Positions 7,676-36,834 of a DNA stretch of 64,000 bases are shown here, piece by piece. The stretch lies in assembly GCA_004298015.1 (NCBI GenBank), contig SCSE01000083.1:1-64000 (forward strand), read 5' to 3'. The notes beneath the pieces were generated by a model that saw nothing but the letters and a program-made list of their open reading frames with translations, ran no database searches and had not been told where the DNA came from. Made by a program: the position numbers and the translations under genes. The stretch comes from Rhodanobacter sp. (lineage in GTDB: Bacteria > Pseudomonadota > Gammaproteobacteria > Xanthomonadales > Rhodanobacteraceae). Numbering within the stretch: the first letter of the stretch is position 1; each line of letters starts with the position of its first letter.

Positions 7676-7966
7676 CTACCCTTGTTCGAATACGCTCCAG
7701 TCCAGCAGTGGTCGCCTCCCTCGTCGAGGTGGAAGATGGTGGCGTGACACATGGATGTGCGTGAGACGGGACCGCCTGGTCGGATTCTGAGCGCGACAGC
7801 TCTGATTGTCCGTCCTCGGCTCACCGTTACCCTTGCGCCGACTGAGGACCGCGGCCTCATTCCCGAACCACGCGTCCAGTACCCCGCCGCTGTCGTCGTA
7901 AAGAATTTCCGTCAAGTAATGGTCGGGGTAAGTCTCGTTTTCGTTGAAGATACCGACGAAGCTCAT
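7676..7966 (-). pseudogene. 5' remnant of a YhaN-linked gene, possibly a DNA methylase
   Basis: The start codon overlaps the stop of the YhaN-like gene as ATGA (7963-7966), as expected for the third gene of a coupled operon. The first 40 or so residues look like genuine protein (MSFVGIFNENE..YPDHYL..ILYDD). After about residue 43 the reading turns into low-quality Arg/Pro/His-rich sequence and stops at 7676. The opening resembles, from memory, the start of large Eco57I-type class I DNA methyltransferases found beside SbcC/SbcD-like pairs; that family match needs a search. The frame therefore seems to be a stump left by a deletion that also brought the RloC-like gene close. Confidence 0.45.
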
Positions 7967-10608
7967 GCAGTCGCCGCCTTCAGCGTCTGCAAGTCGCGCG
8001 CGGCGACGCCGAGGTCACGCCAGTTGTCCGGATGGCAGGAAAACAGCAGCACCTGATGGCGGGTCGCGGCATCAAACAAGATACGTTTCATCTGTGCCAG
8101 ACGGTCGGCGTCGCTGTGGACCAGTGCATCGTCCAGAATGATAAGCGTGGGTTTGCCAGCTTCGCGCAGTAGATCGGCATAGGCAAGGCGGCTGATGAGG
8201 CCCATCTGTTCGCGCGTGCCGTAACTCAGGTTTTCGACGTCGCCATTTTCCGTCCCTTCTGTCGGCCGGCGGGTGAGCATTTGCGGCATGAGGTTTTCAT
8301 CGACCGTGAGGCTGGCGTGTGGAAACAGCAGCTTCAGGTAATGGTCGAGGTGCTTTTGCAATGGGGCCTGCAATTGTCGGGTCAGCGCCTGGCGCTTGTC
8401 CTTCAGCAGACTCAGCAACAGGTTGAGCGCGGCGGTGCGACGGGCCAGCTCGTCACGCCGGCGTTCGCTGGCCTCGACTTCCTGTTGCAGCGTGTCGCGC
8501 TTTTCGTCCAGACCTTGCGCGCCGAGGGTTTCGAGTGTTGCCTCAAGGCGGTCGATAGCTTGTCTGCGCTCGATTGCGGCACGCTCCATCGCCTCGGCGG
8601 ATCGGGTGTGTCGTTCGACATCCTGTTGCAATACCTGCGGCTGCGCCGCGTCGATTTGCTGTTGACGCGCGACGATGGCGTCTTGAAGGCTGGCGGCCTC
8701 GGCGTTGAGATTCGTCAATTGGTCGTTGGCGCTCTTGATACGTGCCTTGTGTTCGGGTGACTCCAGCTCGTTGTTGAGCTGTTCCCATTCCTCGCTGGCC
8801 CTGGTGAGCTCCTGTTTGGCCATGGCCAGCGCCTGTTTGAGCTCGGTGGCGGCCTGCTCGGCAGCCTTCAGCTTGGTCTGCGCGGTTGCAAGTGCTGCTT
8901 CGGCCATTGCTTCATCGCCGGCATCCGGAAGTGCTTCAGGCAATTGCTCCAGTTTGCCTGCCAACCCTTGCAAACGCGCAGCGTCCGAGTCGCATTGAAG
9001 AGATAGGGTATCCACACCTTGTGGCACCATGCCTTCCAATCGTGCTGCTTCGCGTTCAATTTGGCCCGCGATGTTCTTGTTGGCCGTGACTCGTTGTTCA
9101 CCCTCGGCCAGGGTCGCGATGCCGAGTTGCACCAACAGGCCGTCGTGTTGCGCCTGCACGCGTTCCTGATCACGCACGAGCTCGGCAATATCGGTGCCGC
9201 CCGGTTGCAGACGCAAGATGCCGACCTTGGGGATGGCAAGCTCGGTGGTTTCCAGCAGCAGGCGCTCGCCCTTGCCGGTCACGCTTTCGGTGCCTATGGT
9301 CAGACTCTTGTCTGATAGCAAATCGAATTGCACGCGGGTGGCAAGGGACTCGCGGCGAATGGCTAGCTCGTCCAGCTTGGCGCGGTGGCGCTTGAGCTTG
9401 GCCAGCGCTTTTTCGTCGATGGCGCTGGCTTGACGTTGTTCGTGCAAACCGCCCAGCGCCTTTTGTAGTTCATGCGCCTGCTTCAGTGTCTTCCCACTGG
9501 TGACCAGGTTGGCCTTGAGTGCGTCGTGGTCAGCTTGCAGTCGCGCGCGGCCGGCCTGCTGGCGCGCTTGTGTTGCGGCAGCGCTGGCCTCGACATAGGC
9601 AGTGTTTGCCTGCGTGAGCCGCGCTTCAACTTGCGGCAGACGTGCCTCGAAATTGCCAACTTCTTCGTGTGCCTTTGCTTTGGTCGCAGCGCGCTTGGCA
9701 AACCGTTTGGCGTCGGCGTCAAATCCCTGAATCTGCTGCCGACAGAGCTCCTGACTGCGCTCGAATGTCTTCAGTTTGCCTTCGTCCAGCCGCTGCTCGC
9801 TTTGCCATCCACGCACTTCACTGAGGTGGTTTTGCGCATCGCCAGCCAATGCCCGTTCGGCCTGCCACGGCTGCGGTTGGTCGATGGTTCGACGCTGCTC
9901 GCGCAAGCGACCCAGCTCGTCAACCTGGGCGTGGTACCCGGTGATCTGTGCATCCAAATCGGCAAGTGCGCTGCGACCGAATTCAGACGCATCTATGGCA
10001 GTCTTGTAATCTCCGGTCGGCTTTCCCGTGCGCGTGAGCCACTGTCCCCGTTGCTTTTCCAGCGTATCGGTCAGTTCGTCGCCGGCGCTCGCGGCGACTT
10101 CGCCAAGGCTCGTGCCTAACGCTGATTGCAGTTGATCGCCGGCGTAGCCGACCGGACCGCGGATTTCCTGGATGGTGCCTTGTTGTACCCACAACAGGCC
10201 CGGGATCCCCTGGACCTCGGGCCGACTGGCACCCTTGCCCGCGAACTGATAGCCGAACAGCCCGGCCAGTTTGTCTTCGGCATCGGTGTCGCTGAAGTGC
10301 TCGTTGCCAACTTTCAGGTCACAGCGCGGTTTGTTGAGGAAGCGCTTGTTGAGAACCCAGCGCTCACCCTGCCAGTCGAACGCGATTTCCACTTCGGGCG
10401 CACCTGAACTGTCACCCCAAGGCTGCAGGTAATCCACGCTGCCGGACTTGTAGCGTTCGAAAAACGCCGCGCGAATTGCATCGACCAGCGTGCTTTTCCC
10501 CGATTCGTTGGGGCCGACAAAGAGATTGATGCCATCGGTCAAACCGTCGAGGTGCAGCGACCGGCGAAATTGCTTGACCTCGGCGAGATGCAGATAGTCG
10601 AGCTTCAT
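7963..10608 (-). CDS. YhaN/SbcC-like SMC-type ATPase
   Basis: An 881-residue Rad50/SMC-like protein. It has an N-terminal Walker A (GPNESGKS, 32-39), long Ala/Gln/Glu-rich coiled coils through the middle, and a C-terminal half with YGTREQMGLISRL (signature-like) and LIILDDALVHSDADRL (Walker B and D-loop). No CxxC zinc hook is visible, unlike classical SbcC and unlike the RloC-like gene downstream. The stop of the phosphoesterase gene overlaps its start as ATGA (10605-10608), so the two are surely co-translated and should form an Mre11-Rad50-type nuclease-ATPase pair acting on DNA ends. The arrangement matches YhaO-YhaN of Bacillus more than SbcD-SbcC. A role in repair or phage defence is inferred from family and position. 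Confidence 0.75.
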   Translation of the reverse strand: MKLDYLHLAEVKQFRRSLHLDGLTDGINLFVGPNESGKSTLVDAIRAAFFERYKSGSVDYLQPWGDSSGAPEVEIAFDWQGERWVLNKRFLNKPRCDLKVGNEHFSDTDAEDKLAGLFGYQFAGKGASRPEVQGIPGLLWVQQGTIQEIRGPVGYAGDQLQSALGTSLGEVAASAGDELTDTLEKQRGQWLTRTGKPTGDYKTAIDASEFGRSALADLDAQITGYHAQVDELGRLREQRRTIDQPQPWQAERALAGDAQNHLSEVRGWQSEQRLDEGKLKTFERSQELCRQQIQGFDADAKRFAKRAATKAKAHEEVGNFEARLPQVEARLTQANTAYVEASAAATQARQQAGRARLQADHDALKANLVTSGKTLKQAHELQKALGGLHEQRQASAIDEKALAKLKRHRAKLDELAIRRESLATRVQFDLLSDKSLTIGTESVTGKGERLLLETTELAIPKVGILRLQPGGTDIAELVRDQERVQAQHDGLLVQLGIATLAEGEQRVTANKNIAGQIEREAARLEGMVPQGVDTLSLQCDSDAARLQGLAGKLEQLPEALPDAGDEAMAEAALATAQTKLKAAEQAATELKQALAMAKQELTRASEEWEQLNNELESPEHKARIKSANDQLTNLNAEAASLQDAIVARQQQIDAAQPQVLQQDVERHTRSAEAMERAAIERRQAIDRLEATLETLGAQGLDEKRDTLQQEVEASERRRDELARRTAALNLLLSLLKDKRQALTRQLQAPLQKHLDHYLKLLFPHASLTVDENLMPQMLTRRPTEGTENGDVENLSYGTREQMGLISRLAYADLLREAGKPTLIILDDALVHSDADRLAQMKRILFDAATRHQVLLFSCHPDNWRDLGVAARDLQTLKAATA

Positions 10609-11732
10609 TTCGCGACTCCCGCGCGGCGGTTCCGCAACATGCCTGCCAGGATCACCAGTGCATCGCGTGCCGTTTCCGCTTGTTCACCATCGGCTTGCTG
10701 CCGTTCGCGCAAGTCCGCAATGACGTCTCCCACATAGCCATCGGCTTGCAGGGACGCCAGATCGTCTTCGGTTGGCTCGATGCGCAGTGCGTCAAGGTGG
10801 GGCACAAGGCTGCGCTGACGGCCGCCCGCGGCACCCAATGCCTGCTGCAAATGCTCAAAACTGGCCAGATCCAGCTGACCATCCACGGTGACGTCCACGA
10901 CCGACTGGGCGGGTAGTGCGTCCAGTTCCTGCAAGGCCTGTTCAAGATCACTGGCTACCGCCAGGTGCTGGTGGAGTTTGATCCATCGATGCTGGCCTAC
11001 GGGGCACCGCGTGACTTTGGGCTCCGCCTTGGGATGGTCGATTTCGACGATCAATGCCTGACCGGCATCGTTGTCCTTGAAGCGTTCCTGTTCGGGCGTG
11101 CCGCTGTACCAGGTGCGCGCATCGATGCACTTGGTGCCGTGCCAGTCGCCGAGTGCGAGGTAGTCCAGCCGCGCCGATTCGGCACGGTCCGCGGCGATGG
11201 GGTTGGAGGAATCCGCGGCCTCGGGAAGCTGGCCTTCGATACTGCCGTGGGCGAGGCCGATGCGCAGCAACCCGCCGGGCGTCTGGGCGGTATCAAACCA
11301 CGCGGTCAAGTCGTCGTGGGTCTGGCGCTGGGTGAGCGGTGCCGCAAGGATCGCAAACCCAAGCTCAGCAAACTCGGTGACGCCTGGTTCAAGTAGAACG
11401 TGCGCGTTTTCGGGAATGGCGTGGAGGCGCGCGGCCTGCATCCAGATGCTTTCAGCCAGCGCGGCGTCGTGATTGCCGGGGATGAGAATCCACGGTCCGG
11501 CAAAGGCTGCCAGCGCATTGAACGTGCGGCGGATGGTGCGGTCGGCAAGGTTTTGCGCGTCGAACACATCGCCAGCGACGAGGATCGCATCAACTTTCTT
11601 GTCGGTTGCCAGTTGCGCCAATCGCTCGACAACCTTGAAGCGCGCCTCGGACAAGGCGGCTGCATCGTCAGCAGCAAACCTTCCGTACTGACGGCCCATC
11701 TGCCAGTCCGCGGTGTGCAAAAAACGTGGCAT
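10605..11732 (-). CDS. YhaO/SbcD-like DNA repair exonuclease (metallophosphoesterase)
   Basis: A 375-residue calcineurin-type phosphoesterase, first gene of a minus-strand operon with the YhaN-like ATPase. Motifs are in family order: HTADWQMG (6-13), AGDVFD near 53, PGNHD near 88, LAHGSI and LGDWHGT. These metal-ligand motifs are those of Mre11/SbcD nucleases, which bind two divalent cations. The first motif is D-x-Q where classical SbcD has D-x-H (DWH); this variant seems to occur in related annotated exonucleases, so activity is not excluded. The C-terminal 150 residues probably form the capping and ATPase-binding part. Upstream lies a gene-free stretch of several hundred bases holding a large palindrome. 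Confidence 0.75.
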   Translation of the reverse strand: MPRFLHTADWQMGRQYGRFAADDAAALSEARFKVVERLAQLATDKKVDAILVAGDVFDAQNLADRTIRRTFNALAAFAGPWILIPGNHDAALAESIWMQAARLHAIPENAHVLLEPGVTEFAELGFAILAAPLTQRQTHDDLTAWFDTAQTPGGLLRIGLAHGSIEGQLPEAADSSNPIAADRAESARLDYLALGDWHGTKCIDARTWYSGTPEQERFKDNDAGQALIVEIDHPKAEPKVTRCPVGQHRWIKLHQHLAVASDLEQALQELDALPAQSVVDVTVDGQLDLASFEHLQQALGAAGGRQRSLVPHLDALRIEPTEDDLASLQADGYVGDVIADLRERQQADGEQAETARDALVILAGMLRNRRAGVAK

Positions 11733-12080: not shown

Positions 12081-12094
12081 TGGTGGCCCGCCAG
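12081..12094 (+). repeat. Possible distal attachment site of the satellite element
   Basis: TGGTGGCCCGCCAG here matches the last bases of the tRNA-Ile gene at 19435-19449 (TGGTGGGCCCGCCAG) apart from one missing G. Elements that integrate into a tRNA 3' end leave such a copy at their far end. The copy is short and imperfect, so it could be chance; its position just outside the left arm-type repeats supports the reading. Confidence 0.3.
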
Positions 12095-12153: not shown

Positions 12154-12179
12154 TTCTGACTCACATTTTGACTCACTTT
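12154..12179 (+). repeat. Left-end arm-type repeats of the integrated element
   Basis: Two TGACTCAC copies (12157-12164 and 12170-12177) make a 26-bp block that matches 19299-19324, next to the integrase gene, at 23 of 26 positions in the same orientation. Tyrosine integrases bind repeated arm sites just inside the element ends, and these blocks sit at both ends of the satellite. Confidence 0.55.
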
Positions 12180-12327
12180 CCGCGCCGTGACCCCTTCAAA
12201 TGCACCGTGGGTGCCAGGTCAGCCCGGGCATGGTGGGCGCCGCCTCGATTCGTCGCGCGCTTGGGGTGGGGACGGGGGAGCCATGCCGCGCCGCTTGGCC
12301 CTTGTCGGACGTTGCTGGACACCATTT

Positions 12328-12597
12328 GTCCCGGGTTGCGAACCTGCCCGGGACAAACCCGGGACGCGCAAACGTAGGTGGGGCGCGGTGTCCCGGGTGT
12401 CCCGAGTGTCCCGAGCGGATTTCGTCAGGGTGAAGGGTGGTGCAGGAATTCGCAGGCAGGAAGGCGGGCAAGGGAACGGGGGATCGCATCGGAACCTTTA
12501 TGTATTTACTCGGGACACTCGGGACACTCGGGACATTCAAGCGGGCAGCGGTCTGCGCTGTCCCGGGTTTGTCCCGAGTAGCCACGTTACCCGGGAC
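12328..12597. repeat. Iteron array, candidate replication origin of the satellite
   Basis: Eleven copies of a 9-mer GTCCCGRGY lie here. Plus-orientation copies are at 12328, a perfect tandem trio at 12390-12416, and 12560 and 12571. Minus-orientation copies are at 12357, a perfect tandem trio at 12508-12534, and 12589. The two trios face each other across 91 bp containing the only A+T-rich patch (about 12491-12508). Opposed iteron arrays around an easily melted segment are typical of origins bound by an initiator or primase-helicase, as in P4-type satellites. The plus-strand frames across this region are side effects of the repeats. No copy was noticed elsewhere in the window. Operator sites for a repressor are the alternative. 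Confidence 0.55.
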
Positions 12598-12625
12598 AAC
12601 TTGTGTCCGCCGTCGTCCTATGCGG

Positions 12626-13246
12626 TCAGGCGCCCGTCTCGTCGGTCGTTTCTTCCTCGCCTTCCGGGAAGTCGCGGCGGAATTCTTCCAGGTCGACCCC
12701 GTAGTACTCCACCGCCGAAAGTTCATCGAGCCAGCGCGTCAGCCGTCCAGCCTCGGCCGCTGCGCACCCTTTCGGCCAGCTCACTTGCAGCGCATCCGTG
12801 AAGCGGTCAAGTTGCCGGCCAGCCTCGTCATGCGCACGGAACCCCGCTGCCTGTTCGCGCAGATCGCCGCGCGCGCGCTCATTGGCCAGGGCGGACCGCA
12901 GCCGGGCAACTTCGTTTGCCAGGGCCTGCAATCGCTCGCGCAGCTCAGACACGGCCTCAGCGCCCGGTTTCAGGGCGCGCGCGCGAACCCGGGCCGGGTC
13001 GCTGTTAGCTATCCACTCACGCACCGCGCGCTTTGCATCGAACAGGCCATCCGGCCCAGGTGGGGAGATGGTGCCCCGCTTCACGGCCGCTGATACGGCC
13101 TGCCGCGATACGTCGAGCATCGCGCCCAGCTGCGCACCATTCAGCCGCAGGCCCAGCAGGTCGAGCGCCAGATCGCCCGAAGTTGACGCCAGCGCATCGC
13201 GGGTCGGTTTGGAGAGGTGTTCTTGTGCGTCTGTTACGTCTGTCAT
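12626..13246 (-). CDS. Nu1-like winged-helix DNA-binding protein (possible small terminase)
   Basis: A 206-residue protein read from ATG 13246; upstream in-frame sequence lacks protein character. Residues about 30-75 form a helix-turn-helix (LRLNGAQLGAMLDVSRQAV..AVKRG), followed by a Glu/Arg/Ala-rich coiled coil (about 95-145) and an acidic C-terminus ending in a run of glutamates. The order of winged helix, coiled coil and C-terminal helices is that of lambda Nu1-type small terminase subunits. If so, a satellite-encoded small terminase could steer a helper phage's packaging. It is the last gene of the minus-strand operon and lies directly beside the iteron array, so an origin-binding or regulatory role is equally possible. 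Confidence 0.5.
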   Translation of the reverse strand: MTDVTDAQEHLSKPTRDALASTSGDLALDLLGLRLNGAQLGAMLDVSRQAVSAAVKRGTISPPGPDGLFDAKRAVREWIANSDPARVRARALKPGAEAVSELRERLQALANEVARLRSALANERARGDLREQAAGFRAHDEAGRQLDRFTDALQVSWPKGCAAAEAGRLTRWLDELSAVEYYGVDLEEFRRDFPEGEEETTDETGA

Positions 13247-13399
13247 TTTTGATTGCCTGTCCGTCAATACACATTGGAAACAACTACTTACAGCGTTTTC
13301 GCGGCCGTGCAACCCGCACGCAAGGACGCTGGAAAGGACCCGCAAGGCCCAAGGTGCGCGCTGCCGGTCTCTTGCCCCGCCTGCCCACGCGCGCGCTGC

Positions 13400-13744
13400 T
13401 CACGGCTGCACCCGTGGCCGTGGGATAGGCAGGCCGGCTGCCCGGTTGAAGCACCACGGGCAGCCCAGCACGTGGCCGGGTGCGCCATGCCACAGCCACA
13501 CCGGGCCGCAGTGCGCGCAGGTGGCTGCCTGCCCCCAGCCGGCGGGCTGGTAGCCGTCACGGCGGTCGGCCGTCGCCAGCAGGGCGCGTGCGTAGGCTAG
13601 GCAGGTAGCATCGGACAGGCTCGCCAAGTAGTGCCAGTCGCCGCGCGCCAGCCGCAGCACGTCACGCGCTGGCAGCTCGGCGGCCTGCACAAGCCGAATC
13701 AGGCGCAGCCGCTGCGCTTCCTCCAGGGCGGCCGGGCTGCTCAT
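13400..13744 (-). CDS. Small zinc-ribbon protein of the satellite operon
   Basis: A 114-residue protein of unknown function. Its ATG overlaps the stop of the DUF927 gene as ATGA (13741-13744). The N-terminal half is helical (LRLIRLVQAAELPARDVLRL), and the C-terminal third has two CxxC pairs (CAHC and CPWC, about 20 residues apart), which should bind one zinc ion. Translational coupling to the replication ATPase suggests a replication accessory or DNA-binding role; that is inference from position only. Confidence 0.6.
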   Translation of the reverse strand: MSSPAALEEAQRLRLIRLVQAAELPARDVLRLARGDWHYLASLSDATCLAYARALLATADRRDGYQPAGWGQAATCAHCGPVWLWHGAPGHVLGCPWCFNRAAGLPIPRPRVQP

Positions 13745-15618
13745 TCGCCGCCCTCGCTGTCCTCGTCGCCGTCGTCGCTCCACAGCTCCGGCAGGATCAC
13801 GTAGACGCGCGCCTTGCGACCATCGGGCAGGCGCTCGCGCCGGGTGAATCCGCCGTTACTGTCCAGCCGCAGCGCACCGGCGAGCCCCAGCGTGCGGGCT
13901 ACCTGCCGGGCATCGAAACCGCTGCACACCTCAGCGCGGAACACTTCCGCCTCCACGTAGTAGGCGAGGCCGCCGCTATCGTCCCGGCCCTTGCGAAAGC
14001 CGGCCCGGTTGATCGTGCGTGGCTTGTGCGATTCGTCCGCATCGCGCCACGGACTGAAGCGCGCTTCACCATGCTGCGCCAGGAACAGGCGCACTTGCGT
14101 AAGCATGGCGGCAGGTTCCGCCGCGCCATCGGTGCCACGCGAGCGCAGCCAAGCGGCAAAGCAGACGCGGGCAGCGTTGTCGGCCTCACCTGCCGGCCAG
14201 CCAGTCAGACCCTTCACCGTCGCCAGCTCACCCGCAGCCGCCGCCAGTGCGAACCGCTGCGCCACCCGTCGCACCTGTCCGGCCGCGCCCTCACCGCACA
14301 AGGCGTCCGCCAGGCGGTCACGATGGGCCCGCAGGTGGTCGCGCGCGGTGCTGGCATCCGCAGTCAGGGCTGTGAGCCATTCGCGCAAGGCATGGCCATG
14401 GTGTTCGGATGCTGCCCGTTTCAGGCGGTCGGCGAAGTCGCCCGGTGCGCAATCGTCGGGGAGGTGCTCGAAGATACCGCACCCGCCTTCCACGTCCGCC
14501 GGAACATCGATCACGCGCACCTCGTGCCCTGCGCGCGACTTGCCGCCGGATGCCGTCACCAGGTCGCCTAATCCCACCTCGCCCGCGCTCAAGAACAACA
14601 ATCGGAACCGAGCCGCCGCGCGGGCGCTGCCGTCGCGATGGCTGCGGCTTTTGCCTTGGCCGTTCGCCAACAGGTAGGCCGCCGACCCTGCATTGCGCGG
14701 GTCAAGCTGCCCGATCTCATCCAGCGGAAGCAGCAGGTCCGAATACAGCGAAGCCACCGCCTCCAGTGCGTTATCCGTCGCGCGCCAGGTGCGCATGTAG
14801 GCCGGTGGTCCGAACACGCTGGCGGCTACCGCGAGCGCCGTCGATTTGCCCGAGCTACTGGAGCCGCGCAGGTGAAACCCGCCGCCCTCCGCATCCAGCA
14901 GACCCAGGCACGGCCCCGCAAAGGCAGCGGATAGCGCCAGCACCAGCCGGCTGTTACCGATACACGGGCGGGCTACCTGCTCACGCCATGCCTCAATCGT
15001 TCCGGCCGTCGCCAAGGCCACGCCGTCCGCCGTAGCGCCTTGGAATATCACCGGCTCGCCCGGGTGTTCGCCATACGTGGTCATCGGCAGCACGAACGCG
15101 CCGTCGTGCCAGCCAGTGCGCAGGACACAACGGGCTTTGGCTTCGGGCCGGGCCTGCCCAATGTACTCCGTCAGTTTGCCCCGGCGCGTGGCGATGGTGG
15201 TCACCTCCAGCCCTTGCCGCAGCAGCTCGGCGCGCAGCTCCTCGCCACTGCCAGCCAGCATGGACATGGGCATGGACCATCGGTGTTCCTGCCCGTCGCG
15301 ATCCGGGAACACCAGCAGCCGGCCCCATTCGTTGCCGGCGGCGTCGCGGGTCAAGGCGGCCACGCTCAGCGGCGAGCAAACCCATTGCGGCTCGGCTTCC
15401 ATGGTTTCGCCGGTGCCGCGATCCTGCGCCGTGCCGATCCAGTAGACGCCCGGCCGGCCCATCGCCTCGCTCAAGGTGTTCACGAACCGCGCGCGCGCTG
15501 CCTCGGCGGCGGGCGACTTGCCGCCCTTGCCAGCCTTGGCGGGGGCCTTGGCTTTTGCCGCGCGCGCCTCTTGCATGCGAGCCAGATCGCGTTCCGCCTG
15601 TTCGTCAAGCGACGTCAT
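13741..15618 (-). CDS. DUF927-type replication ATPase/helicase of the satellite
   Basis: A 625-residue protein starting at ATG 15618, which overlaps the upstream stop as ATGA. A charged Ala/Lys-rich N-terminus (1-50) is followed by a DUF927-type ATPase: Walker A GSSSSGKS at 252-259, LLLPLDEIGQ as Walker B and an arginine-rich sensor region. The last 100 residues form a separate domain (LTQVRLFLAQHGEARF ... VYVILPELW). The family supplies the helicase part of satellite and plasmid replication, working with a primase; the zinc-finger primase piece is encoded just upstream. It probably acts at the iteron array 1.2 kb downstream. The C-terminal domain is a sequence relative of the separate 120-residue protein encoded at 16070-16432. 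Confidence 0.75.
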   Translation of the reverse strand: MTSLDEQAERDLARMQEARAAKAKAPAKAGKGGKSPAAEAARARFVNTLSEAMGRPGVYWIGTAQDRGTGETMEAEPQWVCSPLSVAALTRDAAGNEWGRLLVFPDRDGQEHRWSMPMSMLAGSGEELRAELLRQGLEVTTIATRRGKLTEYIGQARPEAKARCVLRTGWHDGAFVLPMTTYGEHPGEPVIFQGATADGVALATAGTIEAWREQVARPCIGNSRLVLALSAAFAGPCLGLLDAEGGGFHLRGSSSSGKSTALAVAASVFGPPAYMRTWRATDNALEAVASLYSDLLLPLDEIGQLDPRNAGSAAYLLANGQGKSRSHRDGSARAAARFRLLFLSAGEVGLGDLVTASGGKSRAGHEVRVIDVPADVEGGCGIFEHLPDDCAPGDFADRLKRAASEHHGHALREWLTALTADASTARDHLRAHRDRLADALCGEGAAGQVRRVAQRFALAAAAGELATVKGLTGWPAGEADNAARVCFAAWLRSRGTDGAAEPAAMLTQVRLFLAQHGEARFSPWRDADESHKPRTINRAGFRKGRDDSGGLAYYVEAEVFRAEVCSGFDARQVARTLGLAGALRLDSNGGFTRRERLPDGRKARVYVILPELWSDDGDEDSEGGE

Positions 15619-16073
15619 GCCAGCACCTCGCGCGCACCTTCGATGCGTTCCACGGCTACCCGCAGGCGGGCTTGATCGTCGTCCCCCAGCGGATGGCTTT
15701 CCGCCAGCTGGCGCGCAGCGATCAACACCACGGATGCTTCGCGAGCCAGCACGCCAAGCGCCGCCGCCCAGCCGCTTTGCCGCCATGCCTCGCGCGCCTC
15801 AGCCCGGCCCATGGGTGACTTGTCGGTGATGCGTTCCGGGAAAAGGTCGGCCAGCTCCAGCCCGACCGCGCGCGCGATGGTCAGCACCTCGCAGCCGGCG
15901 AAGCATTTCACCAGCGCGCGCCCGTCGCGTCCCTCGGCCAGGGATAGGCTGGCGCTGCGGTCAGTGTGCGCGGGACATTTGGCAACCCAACCGCGGCCGG
16001 ATGCACGCACGCCATCCAGACGCGCCAGCAGCGTGTCCAGTGGACCGCCGGCGGAACAGGTGGCGGCGGTCAT
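15615..16073 (-). CDS. CHC2-type zinc-finger primase component
   Basis: A 152-residue protein from ATG 16073, overlapping both neighbours by ATGA. Residues about 10-75 form a CHC2-type zinc finger: LDGVRASGRGWVAKCPAH, then SLSLAEG, then ALVKCFAGC and IARAVGLELADLFPER. This is the template-recognition domain of DnaG-like primases. The catalytic Toprim domain is absent, so the protein is either a split primase subunit working with the DUF927 ATPase or a helper that recognises DNA. The remaining helical part (AALGVLAREASVVLIAARQLAE) has no match I recognise. It shares the satellite's single coupled operon. Confidence 0.7.
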   Translation of the reverse strand: MTAATCSAGGPLDTLLARLDGVRASGRGWVAKCPAHTDRSASLSLAEGRDGRALVKCFAGCEVLTIARAVGLELADLFPERITDKSPMGRAEAREAWRQSGWAAALGVLAREASVVLIAARQLAESHPLGDDDQARLRVAVERIEGAREVLA

Positions 16074-16432
16074 GCTGCACCCGACTGTTCCGCAATACAC
16101 CATCCCGCGACGCCCAGCGGCTCGGGCTCGATGATGTACATGTACCTGACCCCACCGCTCGGCAACGTCATGCGGTGCTGAAAGCCATAGCCGTTCACCA
16201 GCCGCAGCACGCAGCGCCGCCCCAGCAGCCGCGCCACGCCGTCGGCGTCGAAGCCTTTGCAAAGCACGTTGCGGAATACTTGCGGCACCACGTAATAGGC
16301 CGAATCACCGGGGCAACAGTACGTGCCGGCGATCGGCGCGCCATGCCGAAACAGGCCAGCGCGTACCTGCGCCAGCACCTCATCTTCGGAAACTTCAACG
16401 CCGATACGGCGTGTCCGGCGATGGCCGATCAT
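16070..16432 (-). CDS. Stand-alone copy of the DUF927 protein's C-terminal domain
   Basis: A 120-residue protein, ATG 16432, with ATGA overlaps on both sides. Function unknown. It is clearly similar to the last 100 residues of the DUF927 protein encoded two genes downstream: LAQVRAGLFRHG against LTQVRLFLAQHG, CKGFDADGVARLLG against CSGFDARQVARTLG, and TLPSGGVRYMYII against RLPDGRKARVYVI. The two probably arose by duplication within the operon. A free copy of the domain might compete for, or bridge to, whatever the C-terminal domain binds (DNA, primase or host replisome). Confidence 0.65.
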   Translation of the reverse strand: MIGHRRTRRIGVEVSEDEVLAQVRAGLFRHGAPIAGTYCCPGDSAYYVVPQVFRNVLCKGFDADGVARLLGRRCVLRLVNGYGFQHRMTLPSGGVRYMYIIEPEPLGVAGWCIAEQSGAA

Positions 16433-16704
16433 GCCTGCGGCTCCGGCTGGCCGCCGCGTTCGATCCATGCTGCAACCTCAGACGCGCGCCAAGCGGTGCA
16501 GCGATCACCCAGCCTCACCGCCTGCGGGGCGCGCCCCTCGCGGACCAGCTTCCACCAAGTGGACTTGCTCACGCCTGCCAGCGGCAGCACCTGTGGCAAG
16601 CGCAGCAGGCGGTCAGCCTCCGGCGGGTTGGCGACGGGGAGGCGGTCGGCGGGTGTCGGCGTTTTCGGGATGGGCGCGGGCGGGGCCTTGTGTGTGTTGT
16701 GCAT
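16429..16704 (-). CDS. AlpA-family transcriptional regulator
   Basis: A 91-residue protein. ATG 16704 is preferred because GGACGAAG lies just upstream; a GTG at 16758 would add 18 residues but lacks a ribosome binding site. The C-terminal 55 residues are an AlpA/excisionase-type winged helix (LLRLPQVLPLAGVSKSTWWKLVREGRAPQAVRLGDRCTAWRASEVAAWI). The N-terminus is Pro-rich linker. AlpA proteins activate integrase or excision genes of P4-like and CP4-57-like elements. Here it is the first gene of the ATGA-coupled replication operon, so it could act as switch or excisionase. Confidence 0.8.
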   Translation of the reverse strand: MHNTHKAPPAPIPKTPTPADRLPVANPPEADRLLRLPQVLPLAGVSKSTWWKLVREGRAPQAVRLGDRCTAWRASEVAAWIERGGQPEPQA

Positions 16705-16815
16705 TGCTTCGTCCGATGCCGCACCAAAACGGCCGGCTTCGGATGCAGCAGTATTCACACGGTCGCTGCGAAGTCAGCGGGGCTGGGTTCAATAAACCCG
16801 GTCCGGGTCAGGGGG

Positions 16816-17460: not shown

Positions 17461-17576
17461 TGAGTGCGCGCCTTCGCTGCGCCCTTCAAAGGGACGCCAC
17501 GGCAGCGGGTGAAGGTGTCCCGCGTTCGGCTGGCCGGCCTAGCCGTGGCGTGTTCTTTCAACTGGGTCGCGCGCTC

Positions 17577-18018: not shown

Positions 18019-19233
18019 TCAGCCGGCCTTGCGCTTGATCGCAACCACGTTGCCCCCCACGCGCAGGTTGTCCAGATAATCGGCCCACGCCTGCATCATG
18101 CGGCGGCGCTCGGGCAGGTGTTGCGTGCGGTTGTAGGCCCGGCCCAGCGGGTCGCGCACGGCATGGGCCAACTGGTGTTCGATGTAATCGGGACGGAATC
18201 CCAGCACCTCATCCAGCACCGTGCGCGCCATGGCGCGGAAGCCATGGCCGGTCATGGTGCTGCCGTCGAAGCCCAGCGTCCGCAGGGCGGCGTTGATGGT
18301 GTTTTCGCTCATCGGCCGGGACCGCCCGCGCACGCTCGGGAACACGTAGGTGCTGCGCCCGGTCAATGGCTGCAGTTCGCGCAGGATCGCCACGGCCTGC
18401 GGCGCCAGCGGCACGATATGCGGCGTGCCGGTTTTGCTCGCCGTGAAGCGCCACTCGCCGGTCTCCAGATCGATATCCGCCCAGCACGCCTGACGTAGTT
18501 CGCCAGGACGCACGAACACCAGCGGCGCCAGTCGCAGCGCGGCAATCGTGACGGGCGAACCCGCGTAGCCATCGATGGCGCGCAGCAGCGCGGCGATGCT
18601 GGCCGGATCAGTCAGGCTGGCGAAGTGGCGCACTTGCGGTTGCTCCAGTGCGCCCGCCAAGTCGGCCGCCGGGTTACGATCAGTGCGGCCCGTGGCTATG
18701 GCGTAGCGGAACACCCGCCCGGCCAGCCCACGCGCGCGGTGTGCCGTTTCAACCACGCCACGGCGCTCCAGCTTACGCAGCGCGCCCAGCAGCGCAGGCG
18801 CGGTCACGTCGGCGACGGGAAGATCAGCCACGTCCGCCAGGTCTTTTTCGATCAGGCGACGCTCGCGCAGGATCGAGCCGGCGCCCATGCCTTCCTTCGC
18901 GCGCTTCGCCAGCAGCTCCAATGCCACGGCGGCGAACGTGTTTTCGATGCGCTCGGCCTGCGTCGCCTTCTGTATCCGGGCCACCTGCGCCGGGTTGGCG
19001 CCGCCCTTCACCAGAGCGCGCAGCCGGTCGCGCTCAGCGCGCGCACCGGTCAGCGACAAGGCCGGGTAGTCCGGGTCAAGCGTCACCATGCTGGCCTTGC
19101 CTGCGTGGCGGTAGCGGTAGCGCCACACCTTCGCGCCGCTTGGCCGCACCTCCAGGCACAAGCCCTGCGCATCGGAGACGCGATAGGCGCTGGCGCGCGG
19201 TTTCAGGCCGCGAATTTTCGTGTCTGTCAGCAT
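18019..19233 (-). CDS. P4-type tyrosine integrase
   Basis: A 404-residue site-specific recombinase. The N-terminal DUF4102 arm-binding domain (LTDTKIRGLKPRASAYRVSDAQGLCLEVRPSGAKVW) is followed by a core-binding domain (about 100-200) and the catalytic domain: R242 in FVRPGELRQ, K in SKTGTPH, HxxR in HGFRAMA, a second His in QLAHAVRD and the nucleophile Y367 in AYNRTQH. All expected catalytic residues are present. Its start faces the tRNA-Ile gene 200 bp away, the usual layout for P4-like islands that integrate at a tRNA 3' end. Four TGACTCAC-type arm sites lie between it and the tRNA. Confidence 0.92.
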   Translation of the reverse strand: MLTDTKIRGLKPRASAYRVSDAQGLCLEVRPSGAKVWRYRYRHAGKASMVTLDPDYPALSLTGARAERDRLRALVKGGANPAQVARIQKATQAERIENTFAAVALELLAKRAKEGMGAGSILRERRLIEKDLADVADLPVADVTAPALLGALRKLERRGVVETAHRARGLAGRVFRYAIATGRTDRNPAADLAGALEQPQVRHFASLTDPASIAALLRAIDGYAGSPVTIAALRLAPLVFVRPGELRQACWADIDLETGEWRFTASKTGTPHIVPLAPQAVAILRELQPLTGRSTYVFPSVRGRSRPMSENTINAALRTLGFDGSTMTGHGFRAMARTVLDEVLGFRPDYIEHQLAHAVRDPLGRAYNRTQHLPERRRMMQAWADYLDNLRVGGNVVAIKRKAG

Positions 19234-19255: not shown

Positions 19256-19324
19256 AATGTGAGTCAGGCAAATGTGAGTCAGTGGCCTATTGCCGCAGTT
19301 CTGACTCACACTCTGACTCACATT
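19256..19324. repeat. Right-end arm-type integrase sites
   Basis: Four copies of the 12-mer CTGACTCACAYT or its complement: 19256-19267 and 19271-19282 (minus), 19301-19312 and 19313-19324 (plus). The last is identical to the left-end copy at 12156-12167. They fill the upstream region of the integrase gene and may also autoregulate it. Confidence 0.55.
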
Positions 19325-19364
19325 TCGTTCGGATTCAAGTGCACCAGATCGGACGACGCCGCAC

Positions 19365-19389
19365 AAAAAAGCCCAGGCAATGCGGGCTT
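19365..19389 (-). terminator. Terminator downstream of the tRNA-Ile gene
   Basis: Read on the minus strand, AAGCCC pairs with GGGCTT around a 9-nt loop, followed by a run of T residues (the A-run at 19365-19370). It lies 45 bp beyond the tRNA 3' end and probably ends the tRNA transcript; if the element entered at the tRNA end, the element brought this terminator. Confidence 0.65.
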
Positions 19390-19434
19390 CTCCGTGATTC
19401 TTAGGACCGCATCGGACAATGACGGTCTGTAATA

Positions 19435-19770
19435 TGGTGGGCCCGCCAGGACTCGAACCTGGAACCAAGGGATTCGCTTGTACCGGAGGTTTCCTTCCGG
19501 AGCGGACTATCTCTTCACCCTCCGCGCGATGCGTGCAGCATGCGCGCGGGTGGGGTGCGGGACGCTCGAGCCTGTGATCAAGGGCACTGCAGCCCTCAGG
19601 TAGTCTCTGCACCTTCCGGCGGTGTACCGCCGGCTTGGCTCAGGGTTGCCACCGTCCGCGCATCGCGCGCCGCTGAGGTTTCCCTGAATTCATCCCGTTC
19701 CCGTCCACGCATTCCTGCGTGGCGGCACCTTTCGATGAGTCCCCTGCTCTAACCATTGAGCTACAGGCCC
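19435..19770 (-). tRNA. tRNA with CAT anticodon (probably tRNA-Ile2), split by a group I intron
   Basis: The exons are 19735-19770 (36 nt, from GGGCCTG) and 19435-19474 (40 nt, to CCA). Joined, they give a 76-nt cloverleaf with an encoded CCA. The acceptor GGGCCTG pairs with CGGGCCC (one G-T pair). The D arm contains AGCTCAATGGTTAGAGC. The anticodon stem GGGGA/TCCCT carries loop CTCATAA, and the T arm is CCAGG-TTCGAGT-CCTGG. The anticodon CAT with this body and the precedent of Azoarcus suggests tRNA-Ile2, where TilS converts C34 to lysidine so that AUA codons are read; an elongator Met tRNA is the alternative. The intron lies between anticodon base 36 and base 37. The integrated satellite starts at the tRNA 3' end. 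Confidence 0.9.
19475..19734 (-). ncRNA. Group I self-splicing intron (IC3-like) in the tRNA anticodon loop
   Basis: 260 nt, no reading frame for a homing endonuclease. Conserved core elements on the minus strand are GAGCCAAGC (19633-19641), the P7 5' strand in AGAGACTA (19601-19608) and the P7 3' strand in GATAGTCC (19504-19511). The last intron base is G (19475), as group I introns require. The internal guide GTG, after loop CGAAAG, pairs with exon CAT to give a three-pair P1 with the expected T-G wobble at the splice site. The core order and motifs closely follow the Azoarcus tRNA-Ile intron (about 205 nt); the extra length is in peripheral helices. Splicing should need only guanosine and magnesium. 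Confidence 0.88.
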
Positions 19771-19882
19771 GTGCGCCTATGGTACCCGAGCCGGCCGCGT
19801 CCGGGGTGGCGATCCGGGCGGAAATCGCCTTCAACCGGCCCGGCTCCCCCCGACGTGTCGCGGCCTCGGTGGAGCGGTTGCT

Positions 19883-36328: not shown

Positions 36329-36834
36329 GCACTCGCCGCCTGCTTGCGCTGCTTGTCGAGCCGCTTCAGCAACAAGGCACGCTTGAGCGACGACAGGTAG
36401 TCGACGAACACCTTGCCCTCGAGGTGATCCATCTCATGCTGGATGCACACCGCCAGCGGGCCCTCGGCCTCGACGATGATCTCCTTGCCCTCGGCATCCT
36501 GCGCTTTCACCTTGACCCGCAACGCCCGGGTGACATCGGCGTACAGGCCCGGAAACGACAGGCAACCCTCCTGATAGACCTGCGAGCCGTCCTTTTCCAG
36601 AATCTGCGCATTGATCAGCGCCAGTGGCTGCTTGCGATCGTCACTCATGTCGGCCACCAGGACACGCTGGTGCACGTTGACCTGGGTTGCAGCCAGACCG
36701 ACGCCGTTGGCCTCGTACATGGTTTCGAACATGTCGGCGACCAATTGCCTGATACCGGCATCGAAGCTGCGCACCGGCTCGGCCCGGGTACGCAGGCGGG
36801 GATCGGGAAATTCGAGAATGGGAAGTTGCGCCAT
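36325..36834 (-). CDS. def: Peptide deformylase
   Basis: A 169-residue metal-dependent enzyme that removes the N-formyl group from new proteins. All three motifs are present: GVGLAATQ (45-52), EGCLSFPG near 93 and HEMDHLEG near 135, supplying Cys and two His metal ligands plus the catalytic Glu. Length is normal. It is the first gene of the def-fmt pair and is divergent from the LysM gene, from which 189 bp with the shared promoter region separate it. Confidence 0.96.

Follow-up and report, generated by a model that had tools for sequence, protein, structure and literature searches.

In Rhodanobacter sp., the gene for tRNA-Ile(CAU) is interrupted after anticodon base 36 by a group I intron of 260 nt; the gene occupies 19435-19770 on the minus strand of the window, i.e., of the whole stretch of 64,000 nucleotides analyzed here. 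Very probably, this intron is a ribozyme of the IA-type, phage-like kind and old in tRNA-Ile(CAU), and a satellite integrated later at the end of the 3' exon, leaving splicing unaffected. The case is largely ordinary; noteworthy are the two apparent intron lineages at one bond of this tRNA and the introns in putative phage tRNA genes.

The interrupted tRNA gene and its copy number

A search with RF00028, as proposed for the minus strand of 19435-19770 in an earlier note on this DNA, gives a match at 19764-19483 with 55.4 bits, above the cut-off of 50 (E 2.4e-11), and the exons joined without the intron form an intact, normal tRNA of 76 nt, so that the note's 260-nt group I intron between bases 36 and 37 of tRNA-Ile(CAT) stands. 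Its further details, i.e., a P1 of only 3 bp (CAU/GUG), the P7 strands, and the terminal G, can all be read in the sequence: P1 is formed by the CAU directly before the splice site and the GUG of CGAAAG-GUG directly behind it, the strands of P7 are GACTA and TAGTC, and the last base of the intron is G, which in the relatives is a requirement of the parser for intron ends and not an independent count. Judged from its sequence, this is a real and ordinary group I intron inside the gene of the AUA-reading tRNA. Without its intron option, ARAGORN finds zero tRNAs in the window; with this option, it reports the same gene ends, a junction off by one base, and the name Arg(ccg). An intron-blind tRNA finder misses the AUA-reading tRNA here. 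Features of the gene, the intron, and the adjoining satellite are collected in Table 1.

Table 1. Features of the tRNA-Ile(CAU) gene, its intron, and the neighboring satellite in the window.
Feature	Position	Strand	Basis
tRNA-Ile(CAU) 5' exon, bases 1-36	19735..19770	-	sequence, exon joining
Group I intron, 260 nt, terminal G	19475..19734	-	RF00028 55.4 bits; covariation; joined exons give intact tRNA
Internal guide GGUG; its GUG with CAU of the 5' exon forms P1, 46/46 rows	19726..19729	-	alignment, covariation count
P3 5' strand CGGGAUG	19691..19697	-	alignment, covariation count
CAGAGACUA, contains P7 5' strand GACUA	19601..19609	-	alignment, covariation count
Extra P7.1/P7.2-like hairpin, from P7 5' to P3 3'	19571..19600	-	covariation, Rfam insertion, comparison with short introns
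P3 3' strand CGUCCCG	19558..19564	-	alignment, covariation count
GAUAGUC, contains P7 3' strand UAGUC	19505..19511	-	alignment, covariation count
tRNA-Ile(CAU) 3' exon, CCA encoded, with the attachment site of the satellite at its end	19435..19474	-	exon joining, empty site
Terminator-like hairpin and T run, element sequence	19367..19389	-	read by eye
Tyrosine integrase	18019..19233	-	Pfam Arm-DNA-bind_3, Phage_int_M, Phage_integrase
int-alpA RNA	17482..17549	-	RF02996 58.9 bits
AlpA regulator	16429..16758	-	PF05930
Frame with primase N-terminal-like stretch	15615..16262	-	phrog_6088
Primase/helicase	13741..15786	-	DUF927; PHROG DNA primase
Terminase-small-subunit-like (TerS-like) protein	12626..13345	-	phrog_57, E 1.8e-6; no Pfam match
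Repeat near displaced end, 86% match to 19299-19327	12154..12182		repeat search
Decayed displaced tRNA 3' end, CUGGCGGGCCACCA	12081..12094	-	empty-site comparison

The intron is presumably self-splicing by the mechanism known for its family. The pre-tRNA would be a transcript of about 336 nt or longer, in which the intron would fold as a group I ribozyme with P1 to P9 and a P7.1/P7.2-like hairpin as in IA-type phage-like introns. By analogy with the family, a guanosine bound by P7 would attack after U36, the freed 5' exon would then attack behind the G at the intron end, and the ligated tRNA-Ile(CAU) would be modified by TilS, which is encoded in the genome, and so read AUA.

The tRNA-Ile(CAT) gene is likely single-copy in this genome. 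The three other CAT tRNAs are, by sequence, two elongator and one initiator tRNA-Met, and a separate intact tRNA-Ile(CAT), which the earlier note had regarded as evidence against its reading, was not seen by ARAGORN or pattern searches in the assembly, which is 99.64% complete and, with its 90 contigs, could miss one. Since tRNAs for Cys, Tyr, and Ile-GAT are likewise missing from the same ARAGORN run on this assembly, a second copy might have been missed, and the single copy is likely rather than proven. Two intron-bearing genomes of the genus, G032 (2 contigs) and G001 (4 contigs), have one tRNA-Ile(CAT) copy each. In G012 (contig C26), two intronless tRNA-Ile(CAT) genes with different anticodon stems lie on the same strand at 36622 and 57331, 20.7 kb apart, possibly with an island between them.

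Fold, lineage, and distribution of the intron

Covariation over 46 relatives supports the group I fold predicted for the window intron. The alignment (A1) holds 46 of 52 related introns chosen by script, L048, L049, L056, L078, L101, and L121 having been dropped by hand as more divergent. Over these rows, 95.4% of the cells of 71 pairs are paired and 29 pairs have changed on both sides; cells with double changes number 338, as compared to 100.7 (sd 11.3) in shuffles, none of 500 being as high. If the structure is slid by 1-3 columns, 34-46% of cells are paired, a comparison in which the counted structure, drawn from the window intron itself, is favored over the slid versions. The pairs of P1 and P7 are present in 46/46 rows and, as they never vary, are uninformative by covariation, whereas P3 is paired in 99.1% of cells. 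The intron thus shows the pseudoknotted core of P3 and P7 and, in P1, the U.G pair at the 5' splice site that characterize group I introns. The weakest helices are P5, with 73% of cells paired, and P2, whose two outermost pairs fail in 34 and 21 of the 46 rows. In the extra hairpin of about 30 nt, the outer CCUG/CAGG is invariant and three of five inner pairs show double changes (in 14, 19, and 1 rows). None of 200 shuffled sequences folds as well as the window intron (z -4.05).

The earlier note had called the intron IC3-like and close to that of Azoarcus tRNA-Ile, which is probably wrong in view of the hairpin of about 30 nt and the position of the intron among its relatives. In the Rfam alignment of the window intron, the hairpin between the P7 5' and P3 3' strands appears as an insertion, and the T4 nrdD intron, which carries the annotation group 1A, and the terL intron of Vibrio phage 11895-B1 each have an insertion at this position; the short tRNA-Ile intron of the Rhodoferax record L124 lacks it. 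Among the matches listed, the 97 parsed loci on genome contigs comprise 92 longer introns, all with the hairpin (73 by motif, and 19 by eye that had matches inside the hairpin and were missed by the motif test), and 5 of the short type, all without it, a number which undercounts the short type because at least L053, L084, L105, L114, L118, L143, and L150, which are unparsed, start short-like. Of 18 parsed viral loci, 6 are short. In a midpoint-rooted tree of 124 introns, from which 11 of the 131 parsed introns, those longer than 340 nt, were omitted and to which 4 of tRNA-Leu(UAA) were added, the latter and 11 short tRNA-Ile introns form a clade of 15 rows with a support of 1.0, outside of which the window intron is placed; this set had been named from length and core ahead of the reading of the tree. 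Its members serve as stand-ins for the IC3 introns of Azoarcus and cyanobacteria, the short tRNA-Ile type being presumably the Azoarcus type, and by this comparison, made in place of one with an Azoarcus sequence, the window intron is probably not of the IC3/Azoarcus type. Whereas IC3 introns should have no insertion between P7 5' and P3 3', the window intron has one, and P7.1/P7.2 at this position, which we take to be the hallmark of IA introns, is represented by the covarying hairpin at the same place as in T4 nrdD; the label IA stands here for this one hallmark together with the annotation of the T4 intron.

If the window intron belonged to the IC3 lineage of Azoarcus tRNA-Ile and had secondarily gained an insertion where P7 and P3 are joined, this would explain why short introns such as that of L124 share with the window intron the tRNA, the bond, and, as read by eye for both types, the 3-bp CAU/GUG P1, and the Azoarcus intron is termed IC3 in the title of a reference. 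Also, L078, which has the hairpin, adjoins the short-type clade, the hairpin-bearing rows do not form one clade on the midpoint-rooted tree, and the types are poorly separated by mean identity to the window intron (0.49-0.55 for the short type, 0.47-0.58 for tRNA-Leu introns, and 0.55-0.66 for distant hairpin-bearing introns). However, the hairpin is present in members from Gammaproteobacteria, Betaproteobacteria, and Bacteroidota as well as in the terminase intron of a phage, and the well-supported clade of short-type and tRNA-Leu introns does not include the window intron, so that we regard a secondary insertion as improbable. With an IA-type, phage-like ribozyme as the preferred reading, the likely lineage of the intron is corrected.

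Searches for relatives gave 186 loci, of which 131 could be parsed for intron ends (97 of 119 on genome contigs, 18 of 50 viral, and 16 of 17 others); the counts are lower bounds, as only tRNAs fitting the pattern are detectable, and among the 55 unparsed loci are truncated contigs, tRNAs of other kinds, and genes without an interruption. In the class, 16 of 274 genomes match, the window's own included. The 92 hairpin-bearing loci listed belong, by NCBI class, to Gammaproteobacteria (59), Betaproteobacteria (7), classes of Bacteroidota (8), Opitutia (1), a record labelled Actinomycetes (1), or none (16). The rpoD gene is found in the same locus in 61 of the 97 parsed loci and in 0 of the 5 short-type ones, among the matches listed. 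For the 64 loci having both, rpoD and intron distances are correlated (rho 0.60; 0/999 permutations), yet the nearest neighbor of an intron is within the five nearest by rpoD at 40 of 64 loci only, and the intron has therefore descended vertically for the most part, though not entirely.

Within the genus, the 5' exon pattern is present in 36 of 45 genomes, and a comparison among these, which the earlier note had also recommended, finds the intron in 15 and none in 21. On an rpoD tree with 30 of the 36 gene-bearing genomes and 3 outside rows, the intron state changes 9 times, 3 changes being forced by well-supported branches, and loss and gain are indistinguishable on it. This tree is poorly resolved, with two Dyella rows inside the genus, and clustering of the states is weak (60-65 of 500 shuffles as low). 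The intron has been repeatedly lost or gained within the genus, and probably it is an old resident of the tRNA-Ile(CAU) gene, one that would have been inherited largely, but not wholly, with its host.

The satellite at the 3' end of the gene

A satellite of about 7.3 kb (about 12.1-19.4 kb) lies between the 3' end of the tRNA and a displaced tRNA remnant. In G010 the site is empty, and matches to 19431-19796 (94.6%) and to 12094-11964 (77.6%) directly abut; aligned at this site, the remnant CTGGCGGGCCACCA of the window corresponds to CTGGCGGGCCCACCA of G010. The displaced end is short and gapped (14/15, one gap). A well-preserved direct repeat of the tRNA 3' end was sought several times without success, and the decayed copy, by itself a weak candidate, was settled by the empty-site comparison. 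The earlier note's view that this tRNA is the integration target of a P4-like satellite is supported by the empty site and the displaced copy. Integration would have occurred by recombination within the terminal 15-25 nt or so of the 3' exon, to which the exchange appears limited, restoring that stretch, displacing the original tRNA end, and supplying the satellite's own trailer. The repeats at 12154-12182 and 19299-19327, which flank both ends, would be arm-type sites of the integrase. A consensus scanner found no promoter or terminator. At the left end of the satellite, 12307-12618 contains a cluster of direct and inverted repeats, GTCCCGAG/CTCGGGAC, possibly its replication origin.

With P4-like and PICI-like satellites, the element shares the tyrosine integrase at a tRNA 3' end with its displaced copy, the int-alpA RNA, AlpA, a primase/helicase, and the short length, whereas a TerS-like protein sets it apart. 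Among the 8 satellite frames scanned, no match to P4-specific capsid-size or psu-type proteins was obtained. Next to the satellite, at 7963-11732, lies an SbcC/SbcD-like gene pair (domains Metallophos and AAA), whose SbcD-like protein has no match in 44 other genomes of the genus searched. A related integrase is found at the same tRNA in G002 and in Dyella monticola L086 and L142, all with the intron, and in the intronless G015. In a survey for the window's integrase family only, in which many flanks in the genus were about 1.5 kb long and one had 182 bases, such an integrase follows the tRNA gene in 2 of the 15 genomes of the genus that have the intron, in 1 of the 21 that lack it, and in 2 of 62 further loci whose downstream flank is 1.5 kb or longer.

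The earlier note had asked whether integration touches folding or expression of the intron, a worry that was not borne out. Since the integrase gene is directly downstream and in the same reading direction, the pre-tRNA now has a trailer that comes from the element, and the satellite might impair the intron or its expression, the tRNA being then a compromise site under selection. Against this, exchange takes place only at the end of the 3' exon, six relatives with the intron but no such integrase (G001, G008, G011, G022, G031, and G061) have the very same 3' exon, and integration is found with and without the intron. Furthermore, trailer and tRNA body form 5.4 expected pairs, less than the mean of 23.4 in shuffles (3/100 as low) or the 24.2 of the G010 trailer, as calculated with single-base shuffles, one length (90 nt), and one relative whose trailer starts 3 bases late. 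Impairment is thus quite unlikely; the satellite appears to have left the intron intact, and splicing should be unaffected. Still less credible is that the intron is a shield breaking attachment sites in the anticodon loop, as has been suggested in archaea for the tRNA introns of Sulfolobus and SSV viruses (PMC4090602), for although the intron does split this loop, the attachment site is the 3' end of the tRNA, undisrupted by the intron, the gene is occupied, and the sample is small (3 of 36 gene-bearing genomes of the genus with a downstream integrase of the window's family). With the satellite taken to be a later and harmless arrival, the case indicates that a self-splicing intron and a satellite attachment site are compatible in one tRNA gene because they use different parts of it.

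Viral tRNA introns and comparison with known systems

The 260 nt of the window intron leave no room for an endonuclease frame such as its longer relatives have. Inserts of 665-751 nt in tRNA-Ile(CAT) of L089, L103, L138, and L184 contain frames of 142-206 aa, of which only that of the viral L184 matches HNH_3 above the Pfam cut-off; the three Bacteroidota frames have no Pfam match over the cut-off and are HNH-like by eye only. The L184 insert has no Rfam group I match over the cut-off, and its stretch has no match among phages. From the 50 viral loci with the pattern, many of which are uninterrupted, 18 were scanned with Rfam and 11 exceed the group I cut-off (9/16 and 2/2). These IMG/VR loci with an interrupted tRNA-Ile(CAT) pattern are L167, L171, L177, L178, L181, L182, L189, L193, L199, L205, and L213; several intron-bearing ones lie beside other tRNA genes, and L171, L178, and L205 also have PHROG-matching proteins. 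In Acinetobacter phage AM101 (L286, 801-1543), halves of a tRNA-Ile(CAT) are separated at the same bond by an insert of about 670 nt with an annotated endonuclease frame; this frame is below the Pfam cut-off, and the insert has no Rfam group I match at E 0.01. Records such as Maestro match over an uninterrupted stretch of about 77 nt. A search of plasmids gave no match.

According to a 2014 review (PMC3984707), none of the phage introns known at that time lay outside protein genes. Phage tRNA genes may plausibly serve as a vehicle. We tentatively suggest, as a possibility that falls short of an even chance, that two unrelated group I lineages (IA-like and IC3) came independently to occupy the 36/37 bond of tRNA-Ile(CAU), both using the minimal P1 of CAU/GUG, and that they are spread between bacterial phyla by tRNA genes of phages, in whose introns endonuclease genes are present or have been lost. 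The literature searched, including passages of PMC11835236, PMC6125680, PMC3984707, PMC5423948, PMC8450103, PMC1524935, and PMC4090602, contains no statement on two lineages at this bond, which is not proof that none has been published. The loci provide a natural series at one tRNA bond, in which the intron is kept, absent, endonuclease-bearing, or on viral contigs.

A group I intron in tRNA-Ile(CAU) of Azoarcus was reportedly described by Reinhold-Hurek and Shub in 1992. Further group I introns have been reported in tRNA-Ile2 of Acidovorax and Burkholderia (PMC8450103), and these as well as the Azoarcus intron share host tRNA and anticodon loop with the window intron. The intron of Azoarcus, with a CAU/GUG P1 and a length of about 205 nt, is not known to have a hairpin between P7 and P3. 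The present genome itself contains a second group I intron, of 231 nt, in a tRNA-Leu(UAA) (G000 contig C16:1392-1709, minus strand; L002/L040), which belongs to the short-type, IC3-like clade and scores 34.2 bits with Rfam, under the cut-off; about 200 bp upstream of this tRNA is a stray 5' half of another tRNA-Leu(UAA). Introns of tRNA-Leu(UAA), which in cyanobacteria and plastids are IC3, resemble that of the window in residing in an anticodon loop but differ in clade, insertion point, and lack of the P7-P3 hairpin. In contrast, the introns of T4 nrdD and Vibrio phage terL, although located in protein genes and, in the case of T4, encoding I-TevII, have like the window intron a hairpin-bearing insertion between P7 5' and P3 3', and the core of the terL intron of phage 11895-B1 matches that of the window intron at 74.3% over query positions 76-176.
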